Of a stretch of 64,000 nt of DNA, positions 4,866 through 44,150 are shown piece after piece (the first letter of the stretch is position 1; each line of letters begins with the position of its first letter). The notes under the pieces were generated by a model that was not told the origin of the DNA, searched no databases, and worked only from the letters and a program-made list of their open reading frames with translations. The position numbers and the translations under genes were made by a program. This DNA comes from Clytia hemisphaerica (taxonomy: Eukaryota; Cnidaria; Hydrozoa; Leptothecata; Clytiidae), in NCBI GenBank assembly GCA_902728285.1, contig CACVBU010001011.1, forward strand, positions 1 through 64,000. Reading direction: 5' to 3'.

Positions 4866-4962
4866 CCAGCTGGCACACAACGTTGTTTCAACGTTCAACT
4901 AACGTTAAATGGACGTTTTGAATGTTAGAAAAACGTTGAAACAACGTTGTGTTCAAGCTGGG
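4866..4962. mobile_element. short palindromic MITE
   Basis: Left arm CCAGCTGG then CACAACGTTGTTTCAACGTT; right arm AACGTTGAAACAACGTTGTG then TTCAAGCTGGG. The whole segment of about 97 bases can fold into one hairpin around a short centre. It encodes nothing. The core ACAACGTTG is itself palindromic and recurs. Confidence 0.6.
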
Positions 4963-7900
4963 CGGAGTTATTTCCAGTCCCCGTCAAGAAGACACCCTCA
5001 CACAATACTTTCTATAATTCGAATCTCTCTGTAATTCGAACAAATGAGATTCGAGTTCGAATTAGCGAGAGTCAACTGTAGATATAATCATAGGGCTTCA
5101 TATGCAATTGAATCAACAAATTCCTTGCCTTTCCTATTATATCATTTACCACTCATTTTGCGCAATTATAAATCCCCCCGATTTTTGGCATTCTCAACAT
5201 TTTGCATCGATTACGACAAAAAAAGAGAGATTTATTTTTTCCCTACATCCAGAATTTAACATTTTTCATTATCATTGCAAAATTTAATGATGATAAGGCC
5301 TTTTGTGTCAAACATATGCTAATTTAGGATTTTTTTGTTTTAAAGATACAGCTTCATCGAAACTGAGAAGGGAAGTTCCCCGAATTCGTTCGCTATTTTC
5401 GTTGATAGTTTTCACAGTGCAACTTCTATTATGGAAAAAGGTGCATCTTTGTCTATAAGGAGACAAATTTGCACCAGCAAATGGTTGTCCACCAAAAATT
5501 GGAACCTCTTCTTCTAAGGCTTGACATAATGAAATTGAAGAAAGAATTTACAATCCATTTTTCTCAAATCTCTAAAAACATGAAGACTATCTCTCTGCAA
5601 CAAGGGTAACTCTTATGAAACTCCCTGTGTTTTGTTTTGTTTGCCTTAAATTAACAATATCATTCCAATTAAGCCTTTACCAAAGATATATTTTCAACAA
5701 GGCTTCTTATAATTTGTTTATTTGTATTTTTGGTTTCTGATATTTGGCTTACATAATAACTTTAAGAGGGAGTTTGATGATTTCATTTTTCTAATGAGCT
5801 CATCGTGCGGAAGTGTTTGGGTTTTATAAGCAATGTGGTTTTGATATATGAAACACGAAAATACAATAAGCTTTATTGATACCGTGTACCATGGCTACCT
5901 TTTGTTATATTTTGGGGGTGTTAGTGTCCGAAAGGTGTTATCCCATGTCATTGTCAAAAGCCCTTTTGTGTTCAGTCGCGCTAAACCTTTTTTTATACCT
6001 ATAAGGGCTGAAATGAGATTTTGTTAAGCATACAATCATGAACTAAAGGTTTGTAGACTTCTGCAATATTTGCAAAATACTTCAATATCGATCAAAAACA
6101 AGTTCCCGAGAGGCTCTGGGTGCTTTCCAAACCCATCCAAAGCTGTTCAAAATCTATCAAAGTCCCCCACTGCAGTCTAACCACAATGGCTAACCACAAG
6201 GGCTTGATTTAACTGGCTTACACCAGTATCAAAACGCTGATTTTTGGACCTACCCCGGTGGGGTGGATGTCCTATAAATTAACCTGTGTTAGTCCGTTCG
6301 TCCGTTCGATCGTCTGTTACCAACTTTTCTCAGGATTGAATTTGAAATTTTGGTTGCCTAGCGTGTTTTTGTAGAAAAACTGGCCAAATTCGATATTTTT
6401 TTATAAGCACATTATCAATTACTTTGGTATTAGCTTTTATCGAGATTGGTTCTTTCATTCTTTATGATTTTTTGCACTTCAAAAACTTCAAACTATATTA
6501 GAACACGAGGTTTTAATAACCCAAATATTAGGCATAAGTTAAGAACATCTTTTAAAGCATAATAAACTCTAAAACACGCCATTTCCAATAAATAATGCAT
6601 CAACTATTGTTTACATTTTTCATCAATTTAACCATCTTTGTAGACGGCATACGGAAGCTGAAAATGAAAGTAAAGGTCCCTCGTGTTTTTAGTGTTCTAG
6701 TTTCTCTGTCAAGCATACTTCCTTATGATATCTAACGTTTTTTTCTAATTTAATGCATGCTTTCTTATAGCCTGTTAGACGAAAACCGCTTTTTTATCAA
6801 AGAAAATATTTGGTTTGTGGGAAGGTACTGGCTAGCTTTTTTAATGTTAGTCAATTGTCAGGTTTCATATCACGACCTGATTTAACTTTCACTTCATTGT
6901 AGCTTTTCATGGGTCCTTTTTGTTGAAAGTTAACTAAAATACGGCTAAATTTTTTTGTACTACGGTAGTAGAAAATAAGCAAAAAATAATGGAAGAGGCA
7001 TTTGTAGTTCATACAAATTGATATTATCCCGTAACAATTATCGTACTATCATATTACACCCATATTATTGTATTACACCTATCAACTCTTAGCTGCCCGG
7101 TCAGTTTCTTAAGGGACTGGATTGTAATAAACGACTACGGTCGCGCATTTTAGTGGGCGAGGTCAGCCGGATCTCGAGGAGTAAAAATTAAAATAAACAT
7201 TTTTAATCATTTTCCATTACTTTTTTTCGCATTCATCTTCTTTTTTGTGCAATCTATTCTTCTGATTCTTGATCACTGAATTGCGTGTATAAGTTTATCG
7301 ACATTAAACGTCTTCTACCAAATCCAATCTAATCGAATTAGGAAGTCTATGAATTTGATCGTTGTTAATAGATGAGCATTTTTCCACGTTCACCGGGTAT
7401 GCTCTAATCTGATTCTTCCACGAAGGTTAACTATCTTCAATACAAAGTTTGTCAAACTCAACGCGCCAGGTGTCCAAACCTATTTGTCAAATAGTGTCGA
7501 ACTAGCACATTTTTGAGATTCCGAGATAAGGTTCTAAAATCATTTAACTGAATAGATTTCTTTGAGGGAAGTATTTAATTTCGGTCCAGTTTATAGTCAG
7601 TTCCACTTTATGTCAGTGGTAGACCTCAGTTTTTCGGTAATGGTGGTGTCTTCAGGGGGAGGGATCCAAGCGGTACATGATTGGAAATATCTATGCAAGT
7701 CATTGAAAGCTTTCCAGGTGATGACTAATCGTCACAAATGAAAAATGACGTTTCTATCATTGAAAAGTTTTGTGATGCTAAATTATTCAAAGTTTCCGAA
7801 AGTTGACTGACAAAGGAATTCATGATACTGTCCAATGAACATTTACGCCATCATTGTTTCACTGGCCAATAGACGAGGGTAATATCCTGATGATGAAATT

Positions 7901-8470
7901 GCATCATAGATACAAACAGCCTGAACAGTTTGAAGTTTTGAGAGATATAATTTCCATAGTTTATGACCACCTTAAAGGGACATAACAGTACTTGCGAAAT
8001 TTTTAAACAAACTGTAGCAGATACAAAATCAAAGCAAATGTCACATGTGAAAATAAAAAATCAAACCAAATATGGCTAATTTTGATTGTTCAATTGTTTT
8101 ACAAGTTTGTTTTGGACACGTGATTTTAATTGTTCTTTTTAATGACACGTGGTTCGCGCAATGTTTACATTTTATTACTTTGTTCTGTCAAAGAAAATTT
8201 CTTTCAGGAAAGAGACGAGGGTTTCATAAGTACATTTGTTTCTTATTTGTTATAAAATTTATATCCGATATAGCTTCGCGAAATCGAAATACCAATATAC
8301 AATAACGAGAATATAAAAACTTCCGCAAAATCGAAAATAGGGAGATAAGAATTTCGCGTATTTCGTAAAAATAATCTTGGAACGACTTCCAGGGTTGTCC
8401 TGTTTTTATCGATTCAATTTTTAAGTTTCCATCTATTTTGAAATGCGTCCGTCATTTTGATTTACACGCA
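4963..8470. other. no gene recognised; scattered repeat fragments
   Basis: AT-rich sequence. A fragment near 6500-6600 carries the TTAAGAACA motif also found at 8.5 and 14.3 kb. A short GTCCGTTC duplication lies near 6295. No ORF here has a recognisable domain. Confidence 0.45.
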
Positions 8471-11284: not shown

Positions 11285-13673
11285 ATGAGAAAAGAATCGA
11301 GTTTTCTGTACGACTCGGATTCGAGTGATCATTACTTTGAGGTAATTTTATTTTCAAAATCTTGCAACTTGTGTTTTTCCATGTTTGTATTTGTATGTTT
11401 TTCTGTAAAAACAAGGTACTGAACGGTTATTCGCCCTTCCCTTTCGTCATTTTTTGAAAGTTATAAGCAAACGCTATTCCGTAGATTAATCTTGAAGTAT
11501 TTGGGGATTGGACTAAAAATTGTAGTCAATGTAAATAAGGATGATAAGTATTTTTTTTCACTGATCAGTGTTTATAATACTACTGAAGAAGTTGATTCGA
11601 GGCTGAGGAAATTCTTCAAGTCACAGCAAGTTTTATTTGAAAGTTTCTAATTACTTAACACGAGTATCACTTAGCATCGAATCTATTTATATCTTTTGTC
11701 GTGTTGAAAATCAATGTTAAACACATTAGCACGCATGCGACCAAAATAGAAATCAAGAAATCTTAAGAGAAATTCTTACCTGCAGAAAGCACACACTTAT
11801 CTGCACTTATCATTGTTTTCCGTCTAAGAAACACGTGCTGACGTAGAAAGGAAGCTGGTCTATATCTTCAAAACGTGTTGACATGGCCATGTTGTTTTTC
11901 CACCACCTGTATTAAGCTATAGTTTTTTTGTCGGTTGAGAGGGAAGAAGGCTCTTATCGTTTTCTGTTCTACGTCACATGTATGTGTCTGATGTCATACA
12001 TAGGAGATCAACCTGCAGTAATTTGTTCAAAACAAATCATTCCATTTGTTTGTCACTGTTTTGATTGTGTTTTTGTTTTTTTTGGGACGAGCGGAAAATA
12101 ATTAACGGTTTGATGTCAGTGCAGTTATTGATTAGAGACTAATTACTCTCGTTCTAACAAACAGAAACACCAGTTTTGAAATTCAGATTTTGTGTTTAAC
12201 GAAACCCATAGTTGACGCTCTCTTTTCAAAGGGAATTAGCTTTTCATCGATTAAGGGAGCGTGTCAAGTAGAAGAGTATCATCAGCCTATATACAAAGTT
12301 TTATTTACCCTGTCTATTAAAGCCTTCATAATGATTCTCGATCTAAGCAAATCTAATGACAACTTCTTATTTCCTTTACTCTATAGGACGACACACCATG
12401 TTGCAGTCTCGTCATTTTACCAGGCAATCGGTCAGAGGAAGATTATCTCCGTAGTATTTACAGCCGGATTACCACGCCTTCGCCGGTATGGAAAGAATCA
12501 ATATCCATCGAAACATTCAAAAGCAATGGTCGGCAAACTGCCAAACATGCCCACTTAATACCACGTTGCTGTCACGAGGAGGAGGTCACAACATCCAATA
12601 AAACTCCTACACAAAGTTTAAGCGTCAATTTCATTCTTCGCGAGGAACTTATTGGAAATGAAGTTCATAAAATCCGTCGTTTATTTTTCAATAATCCGTG
12701 GAAATTTCATCACACGTTTCAGACGTACGACGTCGAGAGAAAGAAAGTCGTCGCCAAGCAACCTTATTACGAACTGACGGAAGAATATCCACTTATGTCG
12801 CCGTCAGTCTGCCATCAAGGTTCTTCAGTTTTACGGTATAACATCTTTGTGAAAGACAACTTTGACGAAATGAAATATTTCTATATGGATTTACTTCGCT
12901 CACAGCCAATGTACGAGGAAGAGAACTTTTGCTATTTCACCATCTTCTCAAAAAATGGAACTGAAATTCAACTGTCATTAAAACATTCCAAACAATTACA
13001 TATTGTACCCACCAAAAGAACATTCTTAAAAGTCCACTTAGACAACCTTTATGAAACTGTACACCAAATGGGTGCCAAAATTGAAGAAATCTTTTGCAGC
13101 GATTGTGGGATTCTCGTAACGCGTGACCCTGAAGGAAATCCGATTCTGATCACAGGTAAGAATCCGTCTAAAAACAATCCACACAGTCGACAGTCTTCAG
13201 GTAATTCAACGTTATTACGTAGACAACAACAAGAGAAAACGCAAAAACAACAACGTAGATCTTTGGACGAGGATGTTTGGAGTGATTGCTCAGATTGCTC
13301 AGAATGCTTACGTCAGCAAAAATACAACAACAATAACAACATTAATAACTATCGTCAACCGAGTAAAAACACTAACAAACGAGCCAGTCGTTATTTTTAT
13401 CAACCCGATCAAAACGATTCTGGTTACCATAACGACGAACTATCCTCAACTGACGAAGAAGACTGTTTATCTTTTTCGCCCCATTCTCCTAAAAGCGGTG
13501 GCACCTACTCGGCCAATTCTCCTAAAAATGACAGGACACTGACATCTCAACAACGCAGAGATCATAGTAATTGCCCAAGAGGCATCACTCAATTGCACTT
13601 TCCTACTTGCCCGAATACAGGATGTTGTGATCGATACGGCAGACCCTTCACCTGTTGCGTCGTTAATGTTTAA
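11285..13673 (+). CDS. FAM124 family protein (two coding exons)
   Basis: Exon 1 is 11,285-11,341 (19 codons from ATG, ending at donor GTAATT). Exon 2 is 12,387-13,673, after the acceptor CTTTACTCTATAG. Both sides are phase 0 and the product is 447 aa. Residues about 24-290 match the FAM124 domain, a glyoxalase-like fold of unknown biochemical role. Visible landmarks are the NNPWKFHHT segment, the block VLRYNIFVKDNFDEMKYFY, then FCYFTIFSKNGTEIQLSLKH and DPEGNPILI. The C-terminal third is low-complexity and polar (Gln/Asn runs, Ser-rich), with a Cys-rich end (TGCCDRYGRPFTCC). A start at internal Met 156 would lose half the domain. The gene is intact and is the best host-gene call in the window. 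Confidence 0.85.
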
Positions 13674-15706: not shown

Positions 15707-16339
15707 GTATATAACGAATCTTCGCTATACAAGTGTCCTTGGATGGACGTGATACGGTCGTGAGCGCTGTCAGAATAATCAAAAAGCGAGTTAAGGGACT
15801 GGATACGTTTGGATAAAGTGTAGCAAGCCTGAAGATGTCATTTTTGTCCGAACTTTTAATTCTGCAAAATGCTACCATGCAAAAATATCCAAAAATGTCA
15901 ATATATTCTGACCATGACTGTATAATCCGGCCTATTTCCCATCAGAGAGCTGAAAGCTCAGTCTTTGAGGTACCGCATCGTCCCCCCAGTTAGGCTCAAC
16001 GGCCCTTTACACACGTACCATCAAAATACTACCGTGAGTATCCACAGCTCGAAGAAATAAATATTGCATTGCCAGTGGCCTCTGATATTCAGCGTTACAA
16101 AATACCATGTTTGAGCCCGAAAAACGTACCCTAAGAAAATATTGATATTTATTCGATACTCACGGTACCGAAAACGAGGGCTTTGGGTTCGGGCCACCCC
16201 CCTGTAAAATCTGTGACGTGGTCCCTGGCGAATTCCCGTAATCAAAGCCGCAGAAAAAATTGATAGCGAGTTGTTTACTTTTTATCTTTACTCGCCAAAC
16301 CTGTACAACTCGCCTTAAAAAGTCTCGTGAGTCCTTCGG

Positions 16340-16405
16340 CAGTCTGTGCCACTAACTCGATCGGGAAGATTCTTCCGAAATGGGAAGAACCTTCCCGAAC
16401 GGGAA
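16340..16405 (+). repeat. left terminal inverted repeat of the 9-kb transposon
   Basis: It contains several CGGGAAG half-sites, among them the perfect inverted pair CTTCCCG-AA-CGGGAAG at its inner edge (16,391-16,406) and GGGAAGATTCTTCC. It matches the right end except for two substitutions. Confidence 0.85.
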
Positions 16406-16815
16406 GAAATTACTTGATTTTTTTCTGCCCGATTGGGAAGATTCTTCCGCTTTGGGAAGTTAAAAAATTACTGAATCTTCGGCGAAGCTGTACGATGACT
16501 GGCGAAAATTGAAACTTTTTGGAGGTGAAAAAGCATTAAATTTTAAGGTTTTTCACCGAAAAAAAAACAAACTTTACCGTAGAAATCTTGTTAAATTGTG
16601 AAAAAACTGCGTAAACTTCCCAAACGGGAAGTTCCAACCCAATCGGGTTTTCCTTATTTTCAACTTTTTCCCGCTTCTTCCCGATTTGGAAGTCCGTTTT
16701 TAAACTCTTGCCCATTCTTCCTGAACGGGAAGCCTTGAAGCCTCGCATGTTTTTAATTCCACCGCGCTGCCTGCTGCTCAACCACCAGATTTTGAATTTT
16801 GATTGAAACTAAGCA

Positions 16816-19800
16816 ATGGATTGCAACAACTTTGAAGAAGAAGAACCAAACATGGAAGAAACACAAAATCAAAGTATGTATCTTCTATCGAGTCTGTTAT
16901 TTTTGTCTACTCCACTGCTGTTTTGGAGGCAATGCTTTACATTTTCCCTCCCTTCATGCAAGCTTATCTATGTTTTTATTTTATCAAGTCCAAGTCAGTG
17001 GGACTAGTCTAAAATTCTACTATATGTATCTAGTCGAAAAATTGAATCATTGAAGCTAATCAAAACAATCAGTTTTTTGATTTACTCAAATTCATCGAAG
17101 TACGAAGACTAATCAGTTTGAGATCTGAAAAAGATTGGATTGATTAATTAGATCGAGCTTTGATTGCTTCGATTACGGTTTGATTACAGTTTGATGACTA
17201 CTCTTTGCATATGCTTTCCAAGCTTAAAGTTATCGAACTAATCGAACAATGAAGAAAAGAGAGGCTGCAAACTGTTTTTTAATTTTAATTTCAAAATTTT
17301 GTAAGCTACACATGCATACTTTTCCAACACAATGGTTGTGAGCAGCTAAGCAAGTTTAATCGATAGCTAAAATTAATATTAACCGTTTGATTAGACATCG
17401 ATTGGAATCAATAATCAATACCGTGATACCGTGAAGTCGGGTAACTTGCATCAGTGGAGGGTGGAGGTAACTCTAGTTGAGATACAAATATATCATTTCC
17501 CTCTTGCCAGTAAGAGGGTTTTTGGTTCAAATGACCATCTAATCCTAAGGTTTCCGTCTATATTGACATAACCTAGTTGCAACACTGAATAATTGAGTTA
17601 TCAATTAAAATAGTTGATACAATCAATACCAATAGGTAATCAATACTTTAATCAATATTCAAAATTTTTTTTACCTTGATTAGCTATTGATTATTGACTC
17701 TAATCAATATCTAATTGATTGATTAATATTGATTAGCTCTCTAATAAAACTGATGATTGATTTTATCGATTCTAAAGATACATAAGCCTGGGTTTACAAA
17801 CTTGAAATTAAGATCAGACTGTAAACACAGATTTTTATCAAAATCAATGATATATTACAGCCTGGCAGTCTCATAATCTTGCTCTTTCCACAATTTCATT
17901 TGATATCCTTGCTTGATGGAGGAGAACCTACAATAGATTCAAGTTTCCATAGCTGAGCTCTATTTATATTGACCCTCACCCATAGACTAAAAGTAGTTTA
18001 AAGTCATAAAAGTTAATTACTCCTCTATGTACTCCCAAGTTGGGGAATTTCAAATCACTCTTGATCAATTACATTTATGATAATCTAAGCAGAAACAAGT
18101 TAGGTAAGGAAGCTTGAATCTTGAACGAGCAAGATAAAGAGACTGCCTGGATACCCAGGCTAACTGGAAATTTAAATTTATTGCTGTTTTATTTTAAGCT
18201 CAACAAGTTATGGAAATCACACCAGAACAAATGGGTCTCTTATACCAATTGGTGCAACAAGACCCTCGGTTTCAATCACATGAAAACGTTACCCTTTTGC
18301 AACCTCTCATCCCTCAGCAGCAACCTAACAAAAATTCCAGTAATATGTCTTATGGAGAAACATCAGAAGATTATTCAGCTAATACTAGTAGTAACCTATC
18401 AGTCTTGGCAGACGCCTCACGCTTATTCCAAGAACCTCTTGCAAGTCAGCCATCAACAGATACTATAAAGGTGAGCTCTTAAGTTTATCAGGTCAACAGC
18501 TTCGTCTCATTTTACTTGATGTTGATGCTTTTTTAATTTGAACAGTAAGCAGCATTTCAACTTTTCTGTCAGTTGACAGAAATTTGTTTACTTGAATTTC
18601 TAACAAGGGTTTCTCTTATTTTAGCAATTTTGAGTAGTGGAATTTGTTATATAATTCTTTTATTAACCAGGTTAGACCATGTTGTACTGGGTAAATGTTT
18701 TTTCTAGATTGCTCAAAGGAAGCAACTGCAAGGGAGCATTGCATAATGATATATTAAACTATTGCATTTTTCAGTATTTTAAAAACTGACTTTAAATCCT
18801 CATTGTTTATTGTAAAAAACTCAAATATGTTCTTGTATAATTCAAAGATAAATTTGCATACATTACTATGTACCACTTATTTTTCAGATTATTACTGTTA
18901 AACAATTAGGAAATGGAACCTGAATGAACCCAATACCCTGTATATTCATTATCCCAATATCCCAACCCGAAGACCCAAACACCCGAAGACATGGTACTGT
19001 AACCCTGATTTCCTGTTGTATGTATTGTATGTCCAAATCCTGGTTATCATATATTTCTGAAAAGAAAAATGTAGTTTTAGGGGAAATCAAAGGAGAAAAT
19101 AATATAATTTAGGGTCATCTTATCTTCTTACATTCTTTTTGAAAACAGGTCAAATAAATTTTAAGCAAATAAATGGGTAATTCAAACTACATTTTGGGAA
19201 ATTTGTATTATTATTAGTTAATTGCATGCATCTCATCTTCTGTAATTCAAAGAGCTTTTTTTGAGAAATCATGAATAGAGCTAATGCATGCAATGTTTAG
19301 CTGACCATGTGCTCTTACTGGTCATATTTTTTTATTGATTCATTGCATTGTCTTTATTCTAGACCCCTCCGAATCATCACAAGGGACCCATCAGGATTCA
19401 ATACGAAACTGAACCTAAAAGGCGTGGCACTGCATACGCGAAGCGGTCAGCAACCTTGAAGCAAAAAGTAAGGTCCACTCGTTTTAGTTTGGAGATTGTT
19501 GTTTCAAAGCAGATATCCCTAAAGGGACTCGCATTTGAATTTTTGGCACTTGATAACTCGGTGATATATTACTCAGTTTTTGTTTTTTATTTCACATACT
19601 TGCTAATTGTACTTCTAGAAACCCCAGATTATGGCAAATAAAGGCTAAATCAGGATATTTAGTGTAAAATAAGGGACATAGTTTGCAAAAATAGGAAGAA
19701 GTAAGATTTATTGGAACCAAAACTTTTTGGTCATGTTGACATTCATTACCACCCCCCCCCAGTTTTTTTTGGCAAATCTTAGTTACAAGATACAACCTTC

Positions 19801-20389
19801 CACTTTTCATTCTTTCTGATTTTTGTTCTAGGCGCATGAGCTCAATGTGATTACTGGCGCAAAAGTGAGATTATTGATCAATAGTAATGATTCCAATGAT
19901 GAGAAGAGTTACGGGATGCCCGTAACTGCTGTCATGGGGACTCAAACAGAATTTTCTTCTTCGATTGCTTCAGTTCCACAAAGTATTTTTGGGACACCAT
20001 CAGCCCACCCCTTATTGACAAGGAAGGACAAGGAGACAACCCCAACTGCTACCGTCGTAGAAGAAAAATGTTGGTTTTCACAGAAAGTTAAAAATTTACC
20101 AGGAATAAAACGTAAACGTTTAGATTTGGAGAAAGAAGGACAACCTGAGTCAAAAAGGAACACGTTGAAATGTTTGATATGCAACGCTCTTCCAAAATCG
20201 GAAAAAGACAAGCAACTTAGGAAAGACCATGGTGTGAAAGCTCGAGTTCTTACTTGTGGTTTTAAGGATTGTGGTAAAAGGGTGCATGGTGTTTGTGCTG
20301 GAATTGAGGTCAAGGCCAAAGTGAAATTGCCCTATTACTTGTGCCCAGAACACAAGTCTTCAAGTAATGAAATTGACACTGATATTTAA
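16816..20389 (+). CDS. MADS-box-like and PHD-like zinc protein of the 9-kb transposon
   Basis: Four exons: 16,816-16,873, 18,199-18,470, 19,363-19,467 and 19,832-20,389, all with GT-AG junctions in phase, giving 330 aa. The ATG at 18,210 would also open the frame, but the upstream exon (acidic, starting MDCNNFEEEEP) joins cleanly. Residues about 120-163 read like the first half of a MADS box of the SRF/MEF2 type: a basic stretch KRRGTAYAKRSATLKQK followed by AHELNVITGAKVRLLI, the amphipathic helix and first strand. Zinc-ligand spacing of a PHD-like finger follows: C259, C262, C287, C292, H297, C300, C316, H319. A basic KRKR run lies before it. It is probably nuclear. DNA binding is inferred from the MADS-like segment, which is divergent. 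Confidence 0.75.
16874..18198. repeat. intron filled with AATCA/TGATT words and a MITE fragment
   Basis: This first intron of the MADS-like gene has an unusual density of AATCAAT and ATTGATT words at about 17,040-17,230 and 17,390-17,770. At 17,429-17,462 it holds a half copy of the MITE found whole at 60,636-60,878, starting CCGTGAAGTCGGG. These look like later insertions into the transposon. Confidence 0.5.
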
Positions 20390-20398
20390 AGAGAAGGT

Positions 20399-20447
20399 TT
20401 CTTTATATACAAGACTTTTTTATATACTAGACTTTTTTATATACAAG
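20399..20447 (+). repeat. triplicated TTTATATACAAGAC unit between convergent genes
   Basis: Three near-identical copies of a unit of about 18 bases stand directly after the stop codon of the MADS-like gene and before the end of the convergent transposase gene. Confidence 0.6.
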
Positions 20448-20494
20448 ACTACAAAGTTTTTCAAATTTTGATTTATGCATATGAGTAGATGCAG

Positions 20495-20500
20495 TTTATT
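20495..20500 (-). terminator. polyadenylation signal overlapping the transposase stop codon
   Basis: On the minus strand AATAAA begins inside the TAA stop at 20,499-20,501. It is a compact 3' end facing the MADS-like gene about 110 bases away. Confidence 0.4.
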
Positions 20501-23500
20501 ATAACTCTGGTTCTTGACTGTCGTTTTCTTCTGGTGTTTCAGCCTCTAGCGGGATATTATTCCGAATATCAATTAGTTTATAGTAGAACGAAATAAAGTC
20601 CTTCTTGTTTTTATTTTTGACCTCCTTTAAAAAGCATTCGTAGTACAATGTTCCGATCGTTTCCCCAAGGCTGGCAATTATTTTGAAGATTTCACTTTTG
20701 ATTTGTTCTTTAGTTTTATTTTCAATTTTCATAGCTTCCTCTTTTTCCTCTTTTGTTACGTAAACGAAATCATGCTCATAACTGATACCACTACAATCGA
20801 TAAAGTCTTGGAAATTTTTCTTAGATCTAGTCGTGAAATGAATAAGATTTGTCTCCAACTCGTTTCCGCTCAGGCTGAAATGTTTGGATTCTTTCATCAA
20901 ATTAGAGCAAAGGTACTGCCTTTGTCTAAACGCAACTCGTACATGTGCTATCTCAACTTCGTGATCAAACTTTTTCGTGCTTTTTGATTCGACAATGTGA
21001 GCATCCATCAAAGCATTTTCTCGAATCTAAACAATAGAGATTTTAAGGAATTTCATTATTTATTTTTATTGACAAGAAAATAAGATTTTTACACACTCAT
21101 ATTTTGATATTTCTAGACTTATATTTAGAAAACAAACCTATTTATAGATTTAAATTTTATTTCAGCTCAACCCTTCCGTCGTTTTTTTAAATTGAAAAAG
21201 AACTCTTCGTTACCTTTGTGATTTTATCTAGATTTCTGAAACTTCTTGTCCATTGATCATTCGTGGGTACACCAATCATCCAACGCTTAGCTTCTTTGTT
21301 TATTTCCTCCAATATTGCATCACCTCCTTGCGCATGACCTTCGTCCGATGAATGGTTAACGGTCAAGTGTTTGTCAATGTTATTCTTTAGCTCGTCAGGC
21401 ATGTTTGCTGATTGAAAGTAGTCGTAGTTCACGATTTCTCTGTAATTTGGATGATTTCTGCCAAAAAATATTGTCGAGACATTTGCTTTTGACGCTTCCA
21501 TCATTGCGGAATGAGCTGAACGGCAACTAAAACAAAATTTTGTTCAGATTTTTTAATAATTTTATGAATGTGTGATAAAAAGTCATTATACTAATTTATT
21601 TTATTTGTCTACTAATTTCTACTAATTAATTGGAAAACATTTTTCTAATCAAAGTTTTTTATGCAACATTTAGCCCATGTACATAGTTTCCGAGAGAGAG
21701 AGAGAGAGAGCAAAACAACTCATTAAAAGTTATCTTTGTATTCTTACTTACCCTTTACGAAACAGCATTAAGGAGAATAAATATCTCATTGTCATTTCGT
21801 GAACGTATATGTAATTAGGGTTTTTGATCGTGTCGTAAAATTTCCAGTAACCTTCTACTGTTGGATATAATTTTGATTTGATGCAGCTCCTCACATACGG
21901 TAACATTAATTCGTCTGTAAATGCTAAAAAGCAGATTTCCAGAACATCCCATAATTTATGATGGTCACTTCCTTTACGAATATACTTCAATGCGTTTTCG
22001 GTGATAAATCCTGAATTAAAATAAGTGATCAACAACTGTCAATTAGCTCCGAAGGTGTTTCACAATGGCGAATATTATGTTTTTTTAAGAATGAAAGTTT
22101 GAGACTTCTTAGTGTAAAAACTTGAAGAATCCAGATATACTTTGTTACCAATAGAAATCTTTGAAATTAATCAAAACTGTAAAACGATGTATTCTTACGA
22201 TCTGGCCAATTTTCACCCTAATATTGTTACAGATATTATTCTTATAAAAAAGCGTACGAAATTTCTCTCACGATTTAGGCAAATTCTTAACAATACGTTG
22301 GTACCCTCAGCCAAAACTCAATATTATTATAAAAAATAAAAAAACTGTTTTTAAAAAATAATTGAACTTGCCCAGCTCGATAACTACGTCACGGGTAAAC
22401 ACATCCCAATTCAAATCCATCCATGCCTTGGCAGCATTCATCTCAAAATGAAGCAAGCCAGGTAATATGATTATCCAATCAAACTCTCTCGTCACAGTTG
22501 CGTTTTGTAGCGCAACACAAGAATGTTCCTCAGCCATCTCTTTACCATATATCGATTGATTACACTTACTGCATGCGAAGACATTCTGAATCAGTTTGAT
22601 TATTATTGTATATATAGCGCCATCATTTTCTAGTAATAACCATTCCCGGTTTCCATTTGGTACATACTTTTTGATACCCGCACGTACACCAATATTTCTC
22701 AGTATCACCACAATATTTTCAAAGCCTGATGGGTTGAGTAGCTCTGGTTCGCCTACGATAATATCAACTGGTTCAGGGGATTGTGATTGCGTGACTTCGA
22801 AACAAGCGTAAGGGTCTGCCACCGTATCAACTTTGCTTTTGTCAATAATGAACTTATTACGTTGTAAAGAGCCACCACATGAAGTACACACTTTCAAGGA
22901 AATATCATTGGCTTGCTTACATATACTACAAGATTTTTCAGTTGAACATTGTTCTTTTTTCTTAACTAGATCATCGATGCTATCTGAAAATTTAGACTCT
23001 CCTTTGTCGTCAAGCTCGACTTGTTGTTGATTATAAACGATACGAAGTCTTTGTTTTATGAAGTTGTTTCTTTTCAAGCGAAAAAAATCTCGATTGGAAA
23101 AATGAATTTTCTCCAAATTTGGACGCGTAGGGGATTCTGAAGGAAACCATTCCTTTGGGCTTGACGCAGGATCCTCTTGTATGGTCGAATCGTCTAATTT
23201 GAGGTAAGCTTTACTTGTGATGACGCTTAATTTGACTCCATCGGAAACTTTTACACGATACGATTTTCCCACTACTTGTTCGTTATCAAATACTACACGT
23301 ATAAAACCAGAAGGAAACACTATTGGGTTTAACGCATTCATATCAAGCCAATTCTTGAGAAAAGTGTGCGCTCCAGATGGCAGGAATGCACTTAAAGCAT
23401 CTGTAATAGAACGGCTTCTGGAGAAACTATAAAACAACAAGTTTTGTCTGAATGAAAATGGTAAAACCAAACGGTCATTTACACACGAATATACATGTTC

Positions 23501-23992
23501 AATTAAAAAGGCGATTTTCAATTTTGATTCATCCTTCTCTGGATCAAGCTCAGTTAAATTTTCAAGCAAAGATACTAAATTGGCTGGTCGATCTTTAAGC
23601 CACTCCTCTGCATTATAGTTTAACATATAATCTATCTTTTTGACCGGGTTGTCAACCTTTAGCTTCTTTATATCGTCCCTTATTTCATCCAGTATTTTCG
23701 ATGGGTTTGACGTACTATACTTCCGTTTACCTTTGAACGACGTGCTTGGTGGGTCGGTTAGGTGCTCTGCATAGCAGTCTTTGCAAATTCTGAAAGTTGT
23801 GTTTGAAGTCATATTTCCTTCCTTCACAATTTGTTCCCTGATATTTTGTCGAATTTTGGAGTCTGAAACCAATGGGCAAGTTGACATTGATCTGTGATTT
23901 TTGTGCAAACATTCTTTAATGTATCTTCCTGTATTGCCATCTCTGTTTGTTTCTTCAATTTCATCAGTTGTAACTTCAGGCGGATTTTCCAT
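20499..23992 (-). CDS. putative transposase of the 9-kb transposon (906 aa)
   Basis: Four exons on the minus strand: 23,992-22,372, 22,010-21,752, 21,526-21,214 and 21,026-20,499, all in phase with no stop. Intron 1 uses a GC donor (CTGG|GCAAGT), the usual non-canonical form; the others are GT-AG. Visible parts: Cys/His-rich N-terminus (about residues 28-73), a zinc ribbon (C355, C358, C369, C372), a second zinc site (C474, C477, H490, C492), then FDWIIILPGLLHFEMNAAKA (504-523) and a helical, His/Asp/Glu-rich C-terminal half. FDNEQ with D236, END with D457 and the acidic stretch EGHAQGGDAILEE are candidate RNase H-fold catalytic positions. Size and position inside a TIR element argue for the transposase. 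The family is not recognised; Academ-like or DUF6589-like is only a guess. Confidence 0.75.
21690..21712. repeat. GA microsatellite
   Basis: A run of about nine GA dinucleotides in intron 2 of the minus-strand transposase gene. Confidence 0.7.
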
Positions 23993-24304
23993 TATGTTTT
24001 GTTTTTATTACTAGTTTCTCTAAAGGAAAAAACATTTAATGAATACATTTTTGAATCAAAGTACTCAAGCTCACATTTTCTGAAAATTTTGAGAAGAAAA
24101 TCAATTGTAATCTTGATCACTCAAATCTCACATTCTTTTAATAACTCCAAAAAACAACGCAAATAAAATTAATGGACATAATTATGGCTGAAGAAAATAG
24201 AGATAAAATATGTTTCCATGAAAAGCTTAGTTTTTGCACACAATTTACAAAGCTAGGTATAAATTTATACAATATCATGACAAATGGTATAGAATAATGT
24301 CTTT

Positions 24305-24986
24305 TTAGGTTACTTTCTGTCTTTTTCGTTCCTCTCGATATTCGATCGCGTCCAATGATCTTAGCTCGAACGAAGAGCCATGGCGCGAAAAACGTATGGT
24401 TTCTCTCGAGTTGGGATTGTCGTCGATGTATTTCCAAAGTACATCTAAAATATCATGACTTTTACAGCTCTCATGGAAAATGAGGTCATAGCGGCACGGA
24501 ATGATGACACCACCTCCTCTTCGATCTGGTGCACCCTTGCGCTTTTTGAAACTCAAATCAACCGGAGGATGGGAACTTTTCCTAGGCTTTCCTTGCACGT
24601 AGCTAAAACAACAAAAATAAAAGCAACACTACAGCTAGGACTCAATAGCAAGAGCTAGGGACAAGATCAACTCATAAAAAAACACAAACAAAAGAAAAGT
24701 AATCATACCATTTCATCGATATCATATACTTGACAAGATCCACACAAAGTTTACATAAATTAGCTGGAACATGACCAACATTTTTTTCACTAATAGGTTC
24801 CACCATTTCTTTGAATTTTTCTTCAACAAGATTGACTTTTGGAATTTTGACCAATATTGCATTTTTGTCGAAACGATTGTTTTCCTCTTTAACGACGTCT
24901 AATTCTAGTCCAACAGGGGGCTCAATACCGTAAACATGATACCCTTTGATTTCGGTATTACCGATGAAGCAATATGAGCTCAACAT
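24305..24986 (-). CDS. HIRAN-domain protein of the 9-kb transposon (191 aa)
   Basis: Two exons, 24,986-24,709 and 24,602-24,305, joined in phase 2 across a GT-AG intron. Residues about 6-85 fit a HIRAN domain: IKGYHVYGIEPPVGLELDV, then EENNRFDKNAILVKIP and NVGHVPANLCKLCVDLV. HIRAN modules, known from HLTF/Rad5 helicases, bind single-stranded DNA ends. Here the domain stands without a helicase. The second exon encodes a basic segment (FKKRKGAPDRRGGGVIIPCRY) and a helical tail of unknown role. The gene lies about 310 bases upstream of the transposase start, on the same strand, and its ATG is about 330 bases from the right end of the element. A role at cut DNA ends is inference. Confidence 0.75.
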
Positions 24987-25246
24987 GTTGACTGTTTGAA
25001 TTCAAAATCATAAATAAAAGAATTTCTTTTGGAGCGGCCATATTTCAACAAGTTTTTCTTCCAGATTGGGAATCTCGGTTTTTGTTTACATTTTTTCTTC
25101 TTCCTGATTTGATTATTGGAAAATCGCGTCTTCCCGAAGTAGAAGATCTTCCGAATCCAGAAGTTTCTTGAATCTTCCCGAATGGGGTACGGTAATTTTG
25201 CCGTAACCCAATCGGGAAGATCTTCCCCTTTGGGTGTCAAGTTAAT

Positions 25247-25312
25247 TTCCCGTTCGGGAAGGTTCTTCCCATTTCGGAAGAATCTTCCCGATCGAGGTAG
25301 TGGCGCAGACTG
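25247..25312 (-). repeat. right terminal inverted repeat of the 9-kb transposon
   Basis: Read on the minus strand it starts CAGTCTGCGCCACTACCTCG and matches the left end apart from two substitutions. More CGGGAAG and CTTCCCG words continue inward to about 25,050. Confidence 0.85.
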
Positions 25313-25634
25313 TACGGAGACGGAAAATTAGACAATTTTATTGCAGAAAAACGGAATTCAGCAAGAAGTTTTACGGAATTTTAGAATTTGCAAAAAATAA
25401 TCACAATTCGCACCTCTGAAACACCCCTCCCCCTGACAAATGATATTAATTGGTCCGATATTAAGGAGGGGGTAATACTAGGGTTGAGGGGATACGGGGT
25501 AGCCAGACCTCCAAACCCTGGACCCTTAGAGATACTGATTTTTGCTGAAATGGTGACCCTTAGAGAGACTGAAAAATTCCCTACCCTTATTATTATAGAG
25601 AGCCTCTTGTTTGCGTTAAAATTGGCTTGACACG

Positions 25635-26250
25635 AAAATTGGAGTTGCTTATAAAAAAATGTTCAAGGTTTACTACTCAGGGAGGCATGTTTTTCAACTT
25701 CTGTCAAGGTAGAATATAGTAGTGTTCATCTCTATCTGTATAAGAACATTTTATTGCATTTTTAACCTAATTTTTCTTTGGAAACTGCATGAAATTGTTC
25801 ACAAATGTCGAACATTCAAGAAAATTGGAGTTGCTTATAAAAAAATGTTGAATGCTCTACGTTGGAGGGTTACTCTTTCGAATGTATTACGCAATCAAAT
25901 AAAAACAAACGTTAAAAAACAAGAAAAAAAAAGGGTTTACGAATTTGAAAGCTGACTGTTCTGGACTGTTAGAAGAACCCTTAGAGAGACTTTATTGAAA
26001 AATTTTCTTCAATTTTTGAAAAATTCCCTACCCTAATTATAGAAACTTAGTTGCAATTTTTACCTCAGTGGGCAATACCAGGCTTGACACGAAAATTGGA
26101 ATTGCTTATAAAAAAAATGTTATAGGCTCTACGTTGGAGGGTCAGTCTTTCGAATGTATTACGCAATCAAATCAAAACAAGAACGTTAAAAAGAGAAAAA
26201 AGTAGGTTTACGAATTTGAAAGCTGACTGTTCTGGACTGTTAGAAGAAAG
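25635..26250. repeat. tandem-like repeats around GCTTATAAAAAAATG
   Basis: Segments at about 25,817-25,972 and 26,089-26,249 are near copies of each other (start AAATTGGAGTTGCTTATAA, end CTGGACTGTTAGAAGAA). A shorter third start occurs at 25,635. Between them lie words of the CCCTTAGAGAGACT type, also seen near 58.9-59.1 kb. No coding capacity. Confidence 0.6.
25670..25820 (+). repeat. dispersed repeat, copy 1
   Basis: About 150 bases starting TTTACTACTCAGGGAGGC and ending GTCGAACATTC recur at 28,467-28,630 with minor changes in the same orientation. The second copy lies in an intron of the gene at 26.7-29.3 kb. Confidence 0.65.
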
Positions 26251-26740: not shown

Positions 26741-29293
26741 ATGTCTGCCAACCAACAACAACAACAAATTTCAACATCACCACATTCGTCAGCCGGTATT
26801 TCACCAGAATTTTTACGCCAAGTATCCAGCTACAGAGCACTGCTGCAAGAACCAACCAACAACAACTGGATCATGCAAGCACTTCATTCCGCCACTCTAC
26901 CTTACAACAATCAGCTTCAACAACAACAATTACACACCCCTCCAGCAGCTTCCCTCCAGCAAACTATCGATTTCAATTATTCGGACGATGAAGATCAAGA
27001 GACCGCCGACACGACCAAAGGCAAACCATCTTATGAAGAACTTTATGAATTTTATGCTAAGTGGAAAGATGTTGTACCCTTTTGCATGTGTAAAGAGGTA
27101 ACCTACGATTACCGGGACTTCATTGACAAAAAGTCGCCAAAATACAGTGCTGCACACCCTGTTTACGTGGTAGGTTTCACCTTTCCCCCTTCAAAGCCCT
27201 TTGTGTTAAAATTAAAGTAAAGGATTTTTTTTTAAGAATTTCTGGGATTACATGTTTTTTTATAAGCATTACACTTGTAAGCATATCTAGGCTCAGATGG
27301 GGGAAAAATTAAGCATATGCTAAGCATTATCTCGAGCCTATGAAAAAGTATAATGCTACTTTGTAGTATGGGTGTAGCAGCATATAAGCAGTATTATTAG
27401 GATATAAGCATCCCTCAAGCATTTTTTCAGCCTTATAAATTTTCGACCTAAGCATCTCTGAGCCTGTTTTCGGATTTTTGTATGCTTATAAAAAACATGT
27501 ATTTTGGTATTTTATTTCACGGTTTACACGCTTTTTTTTATAAGAACCAATAAAGTTTGTGTCAGCCTGGACTGTTCATAAATTTTCGAATTTGTTTAGT
27601 GTCTTTTAGTGATATTTTATAAATTACTAATAAGATTTTTTTCGCTTTACTGGGAGGGATTTTTAGAATATTATTGAATGTTGTGACATTAGTTTCATGG
27701 TAATTTTCACTTGATTCTCTTAAATTAGCAAAATCATACGTGGAAATCACGAAAAAATGGCAAGTAAACAAAGGAATTTTCTGTCAAAAAGGTCTCCATT
27801 TAGTAAAGAATTTGATTAGCAGATAAAATAGTTGATCAACCTGACACCGAGGCTCTTGCGTCTACCAAAAATAACGAACAACCTTTTCTTTTTTCTAGAA
27901 TATTGCTAATGTTGCTCTGGATCGATACAAAATTGGTATTGGTATGGAGAATGTGAAGAACACATATTACAAAAAGAAAGCTGTCAATTGGGTATGTTTT
28001 AACACCCCTGTCTCAGTGCCCCAGTGGGACTTTTTCTCAGAAATTCTTATAATGCCAGTGGTGATGGTTTTGGATCTTTTCAATGCAATTTCAAATGGGG
28101 ATTTATAATTATAGGGCAATTCCCCAGTAGAATTGAAATTTTTGTGCTTTTTATTTTACCAGGACGATTTTTTGACCATGTTTTCCAGAGGGTGTGGGGG
28201 TCCACCGGAACTATGATACAGGGGTGTGTTTTAAGTAGAGTTTGTTTAGTAGCCTTTGATTGAGTATTCATTTGTATTTCATCTTGTATATTTATATATA
28301 TAACACTTTCTTTTCTCTATACAGATAATGCAAACCTTGAAAATATCGGCCAAGCAACACCCGGACGCTTCAACCGAACTGAGCAAGAAGCTTTCGTCAA
28401 TATTAGCTGGGAAAAGATATTCTGAAAAAGAACAGTAAGCCTATTTCTACCACAGCATAATCACTTACTACTCAGGGAGGCTTGTTTTTTCAACTTCTGT
28501 TAAGGTAGAAGAATATAGTAGTGTCTATCTGTCTACAAGTTCTTTTATAAGAACATTTTATTGCATTTTTAACCTAATTTTTCTTTGGAAACTGCATGAA
28601 CTTGTTCACAAATGTCGAACATTCTAAGAACGTTCTAGTCTTAAGATTTAAAACTCAAGATTATTTTTCAGTTTCATTTTCCAAAATTTTCATTTTTGGA
28701 GTCTGGGAAAAGGCTTTTCATCGAAACGAGGCTAGACTGTAATATTTCCTTTTTTTCGTTTCTTTTCAAGGAAAGAGGCTGATTCAGAGGGTGTGTCTGT
28801 GTACCAATACAGACAGAACAGAAAAAGGAGGAGGCAAGAGGAGGCAAATCAAAACCAAACATTTACGGACGAACAACGGGACATTATCGAGCAAGCTGTT
28901 CAAGAACTGGCCGAACAAGAACCAATTGAGCAAGAACTAATAGAGCAAGAACGATCGTCCCTCCTATTACAGTCATATCCACCCAAAATTTCAAAAGGAC
29001 AGTATGTTGCAGTGGCTTGGAACACGCGCCTTGGATTGGCTGAGGTAACGGAGGACCTTGACGAAGGAGAGGATAGAAAGGTGGATTTAATCGAAATCAA
29101 GACAAAGGCGAATGAACTTATGTTTAATTGGAAAAGAAAGACTTACGGCGATGTGGAAAGTAAGTATATTTTGGGAGTTGTCCAGAAGGATAACAATAAC
29201 CAAATTACTAATATTGCGGAACTTGAAAGTCATTATGAAGCCTATTTTGATAAGTATTTTGCAGAACCACCTAAGGATTCTTCTGAAGAGTAA
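26741..29293 (+). CDS. unrecognised four-exon gene (384 aa)
   Basis: Exons 26,741-27,169, 27,899-27,991, 28,325-28,434 and 28,771-29,293, with donors GTAGGT, GTATGT and GTAAGC and matching phases. An alternative donor at 27,098 is weaker. The N-terminus is rich in Gln/Asn. A middle helical region follows (SYEELYEFYAKWKDVVPFC, then NIANVALDRYKIGIG and AVNWIMQTLKISAKQH). Next come a basic run NRKRRRQEEANQ, an EQE-rich acidic coil, and a C-terminal beta-rich part (GQYVAVAWNTRLGLAEVTED, then KYILGVVQKD) that resembles small barrel modules of the Tudor/SH3 sort. I do not recognise a family. Flanking motif clusters suggest it may belong to a transposon rather than the host. Confidence 0.6.
27251..27499. 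mobile_element. MITE with TAAGCAT arrays
   Basis: TA|CATGTTTTTTTATAAGCAT on the left and ATGCTTATAAAAAACATG|TA on the right give clear inverted ends with a TA duplication. Inside, TAAGCAT or ATGCTTA recurs about eight times together with GAGCCT words. It sits in the first intron of the gene at 26.7-29.3 kb. Its plan matches the MITE at 52,754-53,042, where the internal word is AAGGAAC. Confidence 0.7.
28467..28630 (+). repeat. dispersed repeat, copy 2
   Basis: Near copy of 25,670-25,820, lying in the last intron of the 384-aa gene. It includes TATAAGAACATTTTATTGC in both copies. Confidence 0.65.
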
Positions 29294-41208: not shown

Positions 41209-41231
41209 AGTTTGAAACTCATTTTGGAGTT

Positions 41232-44150
41232 ATGTCTGAACCATCGGAAAATGAAGCGGCTCGTCAGTCTGATTGGGATAGAAATGTGACTAAGCGGAAG
41301 ACCAGAAGATCTGATAAAAATTATGATTTTGAGCTTTTTGAGAGACAGAGGTGTAGGCTTGATGCTGAAATTATGAAAAGATGTGATCATGTTAATGAAA
41401 TGTTGTTGAAGTCTTTGCCATCTAGTTCTGTTAATGATGAAATCATGGGTCTAGATAAGGCTTTTGCCGAATTGCTCTTTGTATGTGAAAAGTTGAAACC
41501 AATGATTAATGAACCACGTGAACTAGATTCGTTTTTGGCCAGTGTAGATACCGACATTTTCTTGACTAAAAATTCTGCCATACGTTATGCTAAGGAATCT
41601 GAAGCTAAATCTATCACGAAATCAACAAGGTCGTCGGGGAAGAAATCTTCGTTAGGGGCAACTAGTTGTTCGTCAAAGAGGACTTCTCCAGAAGAAAAAA
41701 TGCTCGAGAATGCTACTCAACTGGTTAGTCTAGAAGTTGAACTTGCCTTTGCTGAGAGGAAGGGTGTTAGTGAAAAGGATCGTTTGCTCCTTGAAAAAGA
41801 AGTTGCTAAGAAAAGGGCAATTTCTGATATTTTTGAAAATTGGACGTTGGGAAATTCCAACTTCGAGAAAAAGGCTACAAGAAAAAGTATTCCTATTTCT
41901 TCTAAGCAAATATCTAGGCCAGAGTCTGTATCTAGCCATGATAGTGTCAATTTTTTGCCAGCTCCACCTTCTAAACCTAGAACACGAAGTGTGAGAAGAG
42001 TTTCTAAGTTTCAAACGACCGTTGATACTGCTGATATTTCGAATGCTCTTTTTGATCTTGTTAAAATGCAAGGTGCTCCTGCGGTTAAACTTGAGGTTTT
42101 CGAGGGTGATCCATTGGAATATAGATCATTCATAACAAATTTTGAAGAACTAGTTGAAAAGAGGATCTCTGACAGTGAAGGACGTCTAGCTCGCTTAATG
42201 AATTTTACTGAGGGAGAGGCTAATGACTTAATTCAGTGTTGTCTGTACTTAAGTGATGGTTATAATCATGCTAAGTCTCTATTGAAGAAAAAATACGGTG
42301 ATCCCCACCGAATTATGACTTTTTTCAAAAAGGAACTAGATCGTTGGGAAGCTATTAAACCAGGAGACTCCTCTGCCTTTGGTAAATTTTATTCATTTTT
42401 ACTTAAGTGTGGTTCCGTCATTGAGAATAAACTTTGGAATAGTTTTGATACGGCTGATAATCTTTGCATAATAACCAGTAAACTTCCACTGCATTGTCGT
42501 GATAAATGGAATAGAAAGGTGATAAACATTCGAACTGAGTCTGATCGTGAGCCCTGTTTTAAGGATGTGCTTTTGTTCGTGGAAAATGAAATGATAGTTG
42601 CAAGTGATCCACTTTTCTCAAGGGAAGCTTTTAAAGATCGGTTTTATGATGATTCTAGAGTTGGTCGTAGTGATTTCAAACCAAAAAGATTACACGATAG
42701 AAAGGATGGTACAAAGGGTTATAAGACGTTTCTTTGTTCGGCTTGTGACGTAGACCATGATATTGAAGTTTGTCCAATCTTTAAAGGGAAAACAATGGAG
42801 GAAAAGTTTCGATTTATATTGAAGGAAAAGCTTTGTTTCGGATGTCTTGAAAAAGGTCATCTTGCTTCAAGTTGTAAAAATCGAAGAACTTGTCTGGTTT
42901 GTAATAAAAAGCATCCAACTATTACTCATGGAATGAGATTTCGTCATCCTCCACGTCTACCTCCTAAAGACTCGAAGAAAGACAGCTCTGAATCTAAAGA
43001 ACCTGATGTCAGACCTTGTCCTAAAAAGCCTGAAGTTTCAAATCCACCTGTTAGTTGTATTTTGAATAAGGATTCTGAAAGAAACATTAGTATGTGTGTT
43101 GTTCCAGTTATATTACGTCATGAATTGTCTAAATCTGACATTGTTACATTTGCTGTGCTTGACAATTGTTCACAAGCTTCCTTCATTTCTGAAGATATTT
43201 TATCAATGTTGTCGATACCAACTGAACGTACTGATTTGACTGTTGACACAATCACTTCCTGTAAGACTGAAGCCTGTCATGTTGTATCTGGACTGAAAGT
43301 GAAAGGATTGCATGCTGGTGATGGAAGTTGGACATCTCTACCAAAACTTTTTAGTAAATCTTACATTCCAGTTGATCAAAGTGAGATTCCTACATCTAAG
43401 TCTATTCAAGCTTGGCCCTATTTGAAATCTATAGAGTCTGAACTTCCAAACACTGCTTCTTTGAAAATAGGAATTTTGGTTGGAGGAAATTGTCCTAAAG
43501 CTATTGAGCCTGTGAAAACAATTGCTAGCCAAGATGATGGTCCCTTTGCTTACAAGACAAAGTTAGGCTGGTGTGTCGTAGGACCAATTTGTTCTCCTAG
43601 ATCTAAGTCTGTAGCATGTTGTAGAATTTCGGTAAATTCTAATGGTAGATCCAATCATCTGTTGGTTGAAGAGCCAAGAGTTAAGGATTCTGGAATTGAG
43701 ACTATGCTTAAGAACCTATTTTCTATTGAAACTGTGCCTGAAACTCGCATGTCTGATTTTGAGGTATTTTCACAAGATGATCTGCATTTCCTTGAAATAG
43801 TTGAGTCTTCAGAGTTCATTGATGGTCATTATCATGTTCCACTACCATTTAGAAATAAGAATCAGTCCTTCCCTGACAATTTTCCACAAGCGTTGAAAAG
43901 AATGGATTCGTTGAAAAGAAAACTTGAATCTTCTGCTCAGTTTCACTCTGATTATGTTAGTTTCATGAAGAATATCATCGAGAAAGGTTATGCTCAAGAG
44001 GTTACGTCATCATATCCTGAGGGTCAGAATTGGTACATTCCACATCATGGTGTATACCACCCTACGAAGAATAAAATTAGAGTTGTTTTTGATTGTAGTT
44101 CGTCATACAAAGGTTTCTGTATGAACAAAAGAGCTTATGCAAGGTCCTGA
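41232..44150 (+). CDS. BEL Gag, protease and start of reverse transcriptase
   Basis: One long frame of 972 codons. The N-terminal third is charged and coiled. Residues about 280-420 match the retrotransposon Gag region known as DUF1759 (KLEVFEGDPLEYRSFITNFE, later KKYGDP). A zinc knuckle CFGCLEKGHLASSC (C-x2-C-x4-H-x4-C) lies at about residue 535, with a second Cys/His site just after. A retropepsin-like aspartic protease (DUF1758 type) follows, with VLDNCSQASFIS at about residue 640 as the active-site segment. The frame then enters the reverse transcriptase (VVFDCSSSYKG) and stops at 44,150 after a register change in a run of A near 44,128. Start chosen: the first ATG after the tandem repeats. 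Confidence 0.85.
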   Translation: MSEPSENEAARQSDWDRNVTKRKTRRSDKNYDFELFERQRCRLDAEIMKRCDHVNEMLLKSLPSSSVNDEIMGLDKAFAELLFVCEKLKPMINEPRELDSFLASVDTDIFLTKNSAIRYAKESEAKSITKSTRSSGKKSSLGATSCSSKRTSPEEKMLENATQLVSLEVELAFAERKGVSEKDRLLLEKEVAKKRAISDIFENWTLGNSNFEKKATRKSIPISSKQISRPESVSSHDSVNFLPAPPSKPRTRSVRRVSKFQTTVDTADISNALFDLVKMQGAPAVKLEVFEGDPLEYRSFITNFEELVEKRISDSEGRLARLMNFTEGEANDLIQCCLYLSDGYNHAKSLLKKKYGDPHRIMTFFKKELDRWEAIKPGDSSAFGKFYSFLLKCGSVIENKLWNSFDTADNLCIITSKLPLHCRDKWNRKVINIRTESDREPCFKDVLLFVENEMIVASDPLFSREAFKDRFYDDSRVGRSDFKPKRLHDRKDGTKGYKTFLCSACDVDHDIEVCPIFKGKTMEEKFRFILKEKLCFGCLEKGHLASSCKNRRTCLVCNKKHPTITHGMRFRHPPRLPPKDSKKDSSESKEPDVRPCPKKPEVSNPPVSCILNKDSERNISMCVVPVILRHELSKSDIVTFAVLDNCSQASFISEDILSMLSIPTERTDLTVDTITSCKTEACHVVSGLKVKGLHAGDGSWTSLPKLFSKSYIPVDQSEIPTSKSIQAWPYLKSIESELPNTASLKIGILVGGNCPKAIEPVKTIASQDDGPFAYKTKLGWCVVGPICSPRSKSVACCRISVNSNGRSNHLLVEEPRVKDSGIETMLKNLFSIETVPETRMSDFEVFSQDDLHFLEIVESSEFIDGHYHVPLPFRNKNQSFPDNFPQALKRMDSLKRKLESSAQFHSDYVSFMKNIIEKGYAQEVTSSYPEGQNWYIPHHGVYHPTKNKIRVVFDCSSSYKGFCMNKRAYARS

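Follow-up and report, generated by a model that had tools for sequence, protein, structure and literature searches.

The subterminal repeats of CACTA/EnSpm-type DNA transposons are bound by TnpA, a protein encoded by the element itself. RAG-like transposons likewise encode more than a transposase, in that a convergently oriented partner gene specifies a PHD-containing protein, and they make 5-bp target-site duplications (PMC7204232, in excerpt). Among cut-and-paste transposases more widely, motifs lying between the second D and the E of the catalytic triad have been used for classification: C/DxxH defines the group comprising hAT, MuDR, Kolobok, P and Dada (PMC10045372, in excerpt), and C(2)C together with H(3-4)H defines the CMCT clade (PMC12730594, in excerpt). 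Here we describe an element in a 64,000-nucleotide stretch of the hydrozoan Clytia hemisphaerica (positions 1 to 64,000 of contig CACVBU010001011.1, assembly GCA_902728285.1; hereafter the window). Positions 16340-25312 of the window are a complete, autonomous-looking cut-and-paste DNA transposon of ~9 kb that carries three genes, A, B and C. The explanation that we favor, and consider probable, is that a DUF6589-like enzyme encoded by gene B does the cutting, that the MADS-PHD protein encoded by gene A docks on the ends of the element, and that the HIRAN protein encoded by gene C acts in repair.

The element is bounded by terminal inverted repeats of 66 nt each, at 16340-16405 (forward strand, tip CAGTCTG) and 25247-25312 (reverse strand, tip CAGACTG), which are identical at 64 of 66 positions (97%). 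An earlier model-made annotation of the same stretch, which used no database searches (the sequence-only reading), had described these ends with their two mismatches, and both its ends and its limits are borne out. The left tip is the same in 20 short derivatives that we retrieved from the genome, and the right end recurs in different flanks at loci L029 and L031. Moreover, the ends of the element are fixed from outside, as paralogues of the flanking DNA stop at both tips. A search with the repeat of the right flank, in which 40 of 607 candidates were scored, listed 39 other copies, all of which start at 25314-25316 and none of which extends into the element, and the sole left-flank paralogue found terminates at 16341, that is, at the left end. 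The right flank itself (25314-26250) is a dispersed repeat, part of which recurs at 28465-28630, and the element is inserted exactly at the tip of this repeat.

Further copies, for which the sequence-only reading had suggested searching with the left end, are present in the assembly (G000; 417 Mb in 951 contigs). Of 264 candidates for a query of 81 bp from the left end, 40 were scored as matches; one of these is the window itself, and 20 of the 39 other places were retrieved with long flanks. All 20 proved to be short derivatives of 361-470 bp that are delimited by the tips of the element and consist of roughly its first 250-360 bp and its last 100 bp, with damaged tips in two (L026 and L028). 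One derivative (L016, positions 836-930) is inserted in the tip of another palindromic repeat of ~97 bp, which is also found at window positions 4866-4962.

The derivatives settle the length of the target-site duplication. In the window the element is flanked by TTCGG (16335-16339) and TACGG (25313-25317), 5-bp copies with one mismatch between them, and the sequence-only reading had offered either a CGG duplication or this imperfect 5-bp one. An exact 5-bp repeat flanks 19 of the 20 derivatives, with none fitting 3, 4, 6, 7, 8 or 9 bp and two fitting 2 bp; mismatched flank pairs, which served as a control, fit in 2 of 380 cases. The 3-bp duplication was therefore rejected and the 5-bp alternative retained. 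Since L009 and L019 have common flanks and so represent one insertion, the independent count is 18 of 19, and the sole derivative lacking an exact 5-bp duplication, L028, is one of the two with a damaged tip. The 19 duplications have a pyrimidine at position 2 in 18 cases and a purine at position 4 in all 19.

Searches of the assembly did not yield a second full-length copy. The nearest copy, at C456, is a right half with 99.4% identity over 3,621 bp whose homology breaks off at a CT microsatellite within intron 2 of gene B, and two other partial right-half copies lie at C255 (96.4% over 2,368 bp) and C423 (92.3% over 2,531 bp). Next to the truncated copy at L029, neighboring open frames (6540-7904, forward strand) specify a SAM domain, a helix-turn-helix and an integrase core (rva_4, E 1.7e-51). 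Three synonymous and two non-synonymous changes separate the C456 copy from the window in exon 1 of gene B, and the ratio of non-synonymous to synonymous substitution rates is 0.69 for C423 and 0.91 for C255, both of which are defective copies; these figures fit a recently active source with decaying copies, although the numbers are small and prove little. Taken with the 97% identical ends, the 99.4% identical partial copy and an average difference of 3.3% among the derivatives suggest recent activity. The same had been proposed from the near-identical ends and open frames, and the support that it has gained comes from these comparisons rather than from transcripts.

The ten exons of the three genes join in frame without an internal stop and specify proteins of 330, 906 and 191 amino acids, in agreement with the claim of a complete transposon with three open spliced genes. 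Gene A (16816-20389, forward strand; exons 16816-16873, 18199-18470, 19363-19467 and 19832-20389) encodes a protein of 330 residues with an SRF-type MADS box and a PHD-like finger. The MADS box exceeds the cut-off of Pfam SRF-TF (E 5.2e-7, 29.4 bits against 26) and its nearest relatives among solved structures are SRF and MCM1. The Cys/His pattern of the PHD-like finger is visible in the sequence, and a PHD comparison with solved structures reached PHF8 at best, at E 0.09. Gene B (20499-23992, reverse strand; exons 23992-22372, 22010-21752, 21526-21214 and 21026-20499), whose first intron is GC-AG rather than GT-AG, encodes the 906-residue putative DDE transposase. Gene C (24305-24986, reverse strand; exons 24986-24709 and 24602-24305) encodes a HIRAN-like protein of 191 residues, and relatives of it exceed the Pfam HIRAN cut-off at C781, C898, C69, C128, C695, C899 and C928; comparison of the HIRAN profile with solved structures gave only chance matches. 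Thus, the MADS assignment made from the letters alone is now backed by a Pfam match, the PHD-like assignment falls below its cut-off, and the free-standing HIRAN is upheld by its relatives and not by the score of the window gene.

Gene B was placed in a protein family through its match to Pfam DUF6589 (PF20231; E 3.7e-8, 32.9 bits against a curated cut-off of 27). In an alignment of its relatives, all rows of which come from this single genome, the D of a 'DN' motif is conserved in all 6 rows that reach it, the D of 'DG' in 5 of 5, a GLxH motif in 5 of 5 and the E of 'LE' in 3 of 3. The corresponding positions in gene B are D236, D457, 515 and E700, and D236-D457-E700 would make a plausible catalytic triad. 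The order and context of these motifs, with a zinc ribbon between the two D's and an insertion before the E, appear to fit an RNase H-like DDE enzyme. The DUF6589 model reaches 4 of 10 aligned sequences of the gene B family. Elsewhere in the genome, at least 105 matches over the cut-off are listed (102 of 356 candidates scored), several of them with open frames longer than 600 amino acids, and these constitute a large expansion apart from the window element's own clade; none of 14 control genomes has a DUF6589 match. Comparison of the family profile with solved structures returned three eL40 zinc-ribbon proteins and two chance matches, which were set aside, none being a transposase. The name DUF6589 was found in no paper of the literature searched.

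It is conceivable, and we give the idea serious if lesser weight, that the element belongs to a superfamily already catalogued under another name, likeliest in the hAT/MuDR/Kolobok/P/Dada group, with DUF6589 being an unlinked Pfam name for its transposase. The duplication length is compatible with such a placement, in that hAT families with 5-bp duplications have been reported (PMC12730594, in excerpt). However, when ten member sequences were compared with Pfam-A at E-values up to 10, none of the named transposase families (hAT, MuDR, Kolobok, P and others) was matched, apart from a single hit, at E 0.11, to a CxC4 cluster 'associated with KDZ', and the motif that the group has as C/DxxH begins with G in the gene B family, which reads GLxH in 5 of 5 rows.

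We think it unlikely that the element instead belongs to the CMCT clade (CACTA/EnSpm, Mirage, Chapaev and Transib) as a diverged member near the RAG-like transposons. Termini of the CA..TG type and duplications of 2-5 bp are typical of that clade (PMC12730594, in excerpt), the PHD-containing partner and 5-bp duplications of RAG-like elements have counterparts here, and gene B has a C-x2-C at 474, 17 residues past the second D. Yet this C-x2-C is confined to the window clade and absent from the relatives P0001 and P0002, so that the family does not show the C(2)C and H(3-4)H arrangement; no RAG1 or Transib was matched among solved structures; and the partner has a MADS box in place of kelch and the tip reads CAGTCTG, not CAC.

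Partner genes recur beside transposase genes well beyond the window element and its close copies. Searches with the first 541 residues of gene B (86 matches; 80 of 289 candidates scored) and with the 855-residue P0001 (66 matches; 53 of 276), merged by hand, gave at least 93 related places including the window, and the element group is rich in families in this genome. A further transposase relative lies on the window's own contig, outside the window (C700:112243-113982). We counted partner genes within 6 kb of a listed transposase, a vicinity for which ~0.3% of the genome qualifies; the transposase lists hold the best candidates only, and host genes are expected among the partner-gene misses. 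Gene C gave 29 matches (44 of 44 candidates scored) at 24 places, of which 15 adjoin a transposase (11 upstream, same strand; 4 downstream, opposite strand) and 9 do not. The PHD part of gene A matched at 6 places, 5 of them within 6 kb, all downstream and on the opposite strand, with one miss. When the window and three close copies are excluded, 11 of 20 HIRAN places and 4 of 5 PHD places still adjoin a transposase. With the Pfam models, HIRAN was found at 69 places, of which 57 exceed the cut-off; 16 of the 69 are in the vicinity of a transposase (3 upstream, same strand; 13 downstream, opposite strand) and 53 outside it. SRF-TF was found at 15 places, of which 6 exceed the cut-off; a transposase adjoins 8 of the 15 but not the other 7. 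All 8 of these MADS places are 0.26-6.3 kb downstream of the transposase on the opposite strand.

At C898 and C341 both MADS and HIRAN genes adjoin the transposase, in the order HIRAN, MADS, facing transposase, which implies that the HIRAN gene is able to sit on either side. A two-gene core is seen at L033, where an uninterrupted 855-residue transposase faces a PHD-like protein of 416 residues. A MADS box was not found in L033 by phmmer against solved structures, and the claim of one for its clade rests on relatives at C695, C229 and C692 (E 0.008 each, below the Pfam cut-off). No convincing terminal repeats were found within the fetched stretches of L032, L033, L035 and L036, and the homology of L035 and L036 ends on both sides without inverted tips. 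Because the partner genes recur by diverged transposases in fixed orientations, the trio of transposase, MADS-PHD and HIRAN is, as judged from gene neighborhoods, a real transposon gene set. The same recurrence, together with the joint presence of MADS and HIRAN at C898 and C341, makes capture from the host a very improbable origin for genes A and C, on a transposon that would need gene B alone, even though host-gene capture by transposons is known and gene A lacks another close copy in the assembly.

The ends of the element contain an array of palindromes that may be the binding sites of its MADS protein. The first 410 and last 260 bp (670 bp together) contain nine TTCC-N6-GGAA palindromes, six at 16373-16731 (starts 16373, 16392, 16445, 16617, 16678 and 16718) and three at 25059-25279 (starts 25059, 25247 and 25266), and none with the arms set at another distance in the range 0-12. 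Among 2,000 first-order Markov reshuffles of the ends, such palindromes numbered 0.08 on average and 2 at most. Three additional sites in the ends have one arm mismatch, and one exact site lies in the interior, at 20190, with none in the rest of the window. Outside the elements, the window and the locus DNA contain 3 such palindromes in 244,189 bp, with 0-8 at other spacings from 2 to 10, and the 20 derivatives contain 133 in 9,056 bp, with one at spacing 5. Each of the ten exact sites in the element has A or T at both central bases. SRF and Mcm1 sites have the CArG geometry, CC-N6-GG with an A/T center, and CArG sequences are bound by MADS proteins. The arm letters of the first five left sites are retained in the derivative consensus, and 19 derivatives (L019 being omitted as a duplicate) depart from that consensus in 4 of 873 arm cells and 94 of 5,493 others (p 0.003), cells that share ancestry. 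We infer that the gene A protein may bind the ends of its own element through these CArG-like palindromes.

In the mechanism that we propose, the DUF6589-like transposase, with its putative RNase H fold, would cut at the CAGTCTG tips and insert the element at a target of the loose palindrome N-Y-N-R-N, the two joints being staggered by 5 bp. The MADS-PHD protein would dimerize on TTCC-N6-GGAA at both ends and assist in their recognition or pairing. Chromatin reading is a possible role for its PHD finger, and binding to DNA ends or gaps, as the element is excised and the DNA repaired, is a probable one for the HIRAN protein. Having kept the ends and sites but not the genes, the short derivatives would have to be moved in trans. 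Docking by a MADS-PHD protein combined with cutting and pasting by a DUF6589-like enzyme would amount to a division of labor like that of RAG1 and RAG2.

Several results weigh against this reading. The longest relatives of gene B, P0001 and P0002, have no match to DUF6589 at E-values up to 1, P0005 is likewise outside the model, gene B of the window is not among the 105 listed genome matches, and neither a gene B relative nor the family profile matched a solved transposase. In gene A the PHD-like finger scores below the Pfam cut-off (E 0.018, 15.5 bits against 24), as does gene C for HIRAN (E 0.061, 13.6 bits against 24.7), and no other close copy of gene A was found in the assembly with 27 of 27 candidates scored. 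Seven of the 8 MADS places near transposases are below the cut-off (C380, C695, C229 and C692 at E 0.006-0.008; C341, C267 and C898 at 0.33-0.61), only C299 being over it, and a two-sequence MADS profile did not pick out L033, 56 of 1000 shuffles scoring equally well. The window departs from the derivative consensus at 0 of 47 arm positions and 22 of 294 others, for a p of 0.054. Finally, the empty site that the sequence-only reading had suggested seeking was not recovered, no clean site with both flanks joined being complete among 41 joined-flank matches, of which the one at C589 reaches 9 bases further left than the others.

Whether the element represents a new superfamily of animal DNA transposons, one that combines a DUF6589-type DDE enzyme, a MADS-PHD protein recognizing CArG-like arrays in its own ends and a HIRAN protein, is in our estimate an evenly balanced question; such a superfamily would have a two-subunit recombinase, equipped for end recognition and chromatin reading, whose evolution ran parallel to that of RAG1-RAG2, and would be the first with a MADS-box end-binder. 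No MADS-encoding transposon was apparent among the listed titles and abstract openings of the literature searched, a body that does not include Repbase Reports. As before, no superfamily name is assigned, and the large protein now has a place in Pfam DUF6589.

These observations suggest that DUF6589, an unstudied domain family, has a concrete role as a transposase. The element also combines a MADS protein with a putative array of its binding sites, a self-contained pair that is open to testing. With RAG as the first, it may be a second instance in which a transposase and a PHD partner face each other tail to tail, and would then permit a comparative look at why recombinases are joined by chromatin readers. 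Moreover, the element group is common in this genome, and its ends could have seeded CArG-type regulatory sites.

Two other features of the window are apart from the element. A retroelement that we take to be BEL/Pao has long open frames, which include a DUF1759 domain, at 41211-46919 (forward strand). A FAM124-domain gene (12387-13670, forward strand; E 3.7e-30) is likely a host gene; FAM124 is an animal gene.

Set beside known systems, the window element resembles several in part. Among Pfam DUF6589 proteins, gene B lies over the cut-off, with P0001 and P0002 outside the model. With CACTA/EnSpm it shares a short-repeat array inside both ends and a second element-encoded, here putative, DNA-binding protein; it differs in the MADS type of this putative binder, the CArG-like sites, the 5-bp duplication, the tip and the transposase. 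Rehavkus, a Mutator-related transposon, likewise pairs a PHD finger with cut-and-paste transposition, but there the duplication has 9 bp and the finger is part of the transposase itself (PMC6446971, in excerpt). The RAG-like elements (RAGL/ProtoRAG) also have a transposase tail to tail with a PHD partner, terminal inverted repeats and a 5-bp duplication, and the C-x2-H that forms the last zinc pair of the partner in the window, L033 and L036 is the one reported for vertebrate RAG2 (PMC7204232, in excerpt). From RAG-like and Transib elements the window element is set apart by a gene B without similarity to RAG1 detectable in solved-structure searches, by a tip that lacks a CAC-type heptamer, and by a partner that has a MADS box where theirs has kelch, accompanied by an extra HIRAN gene.

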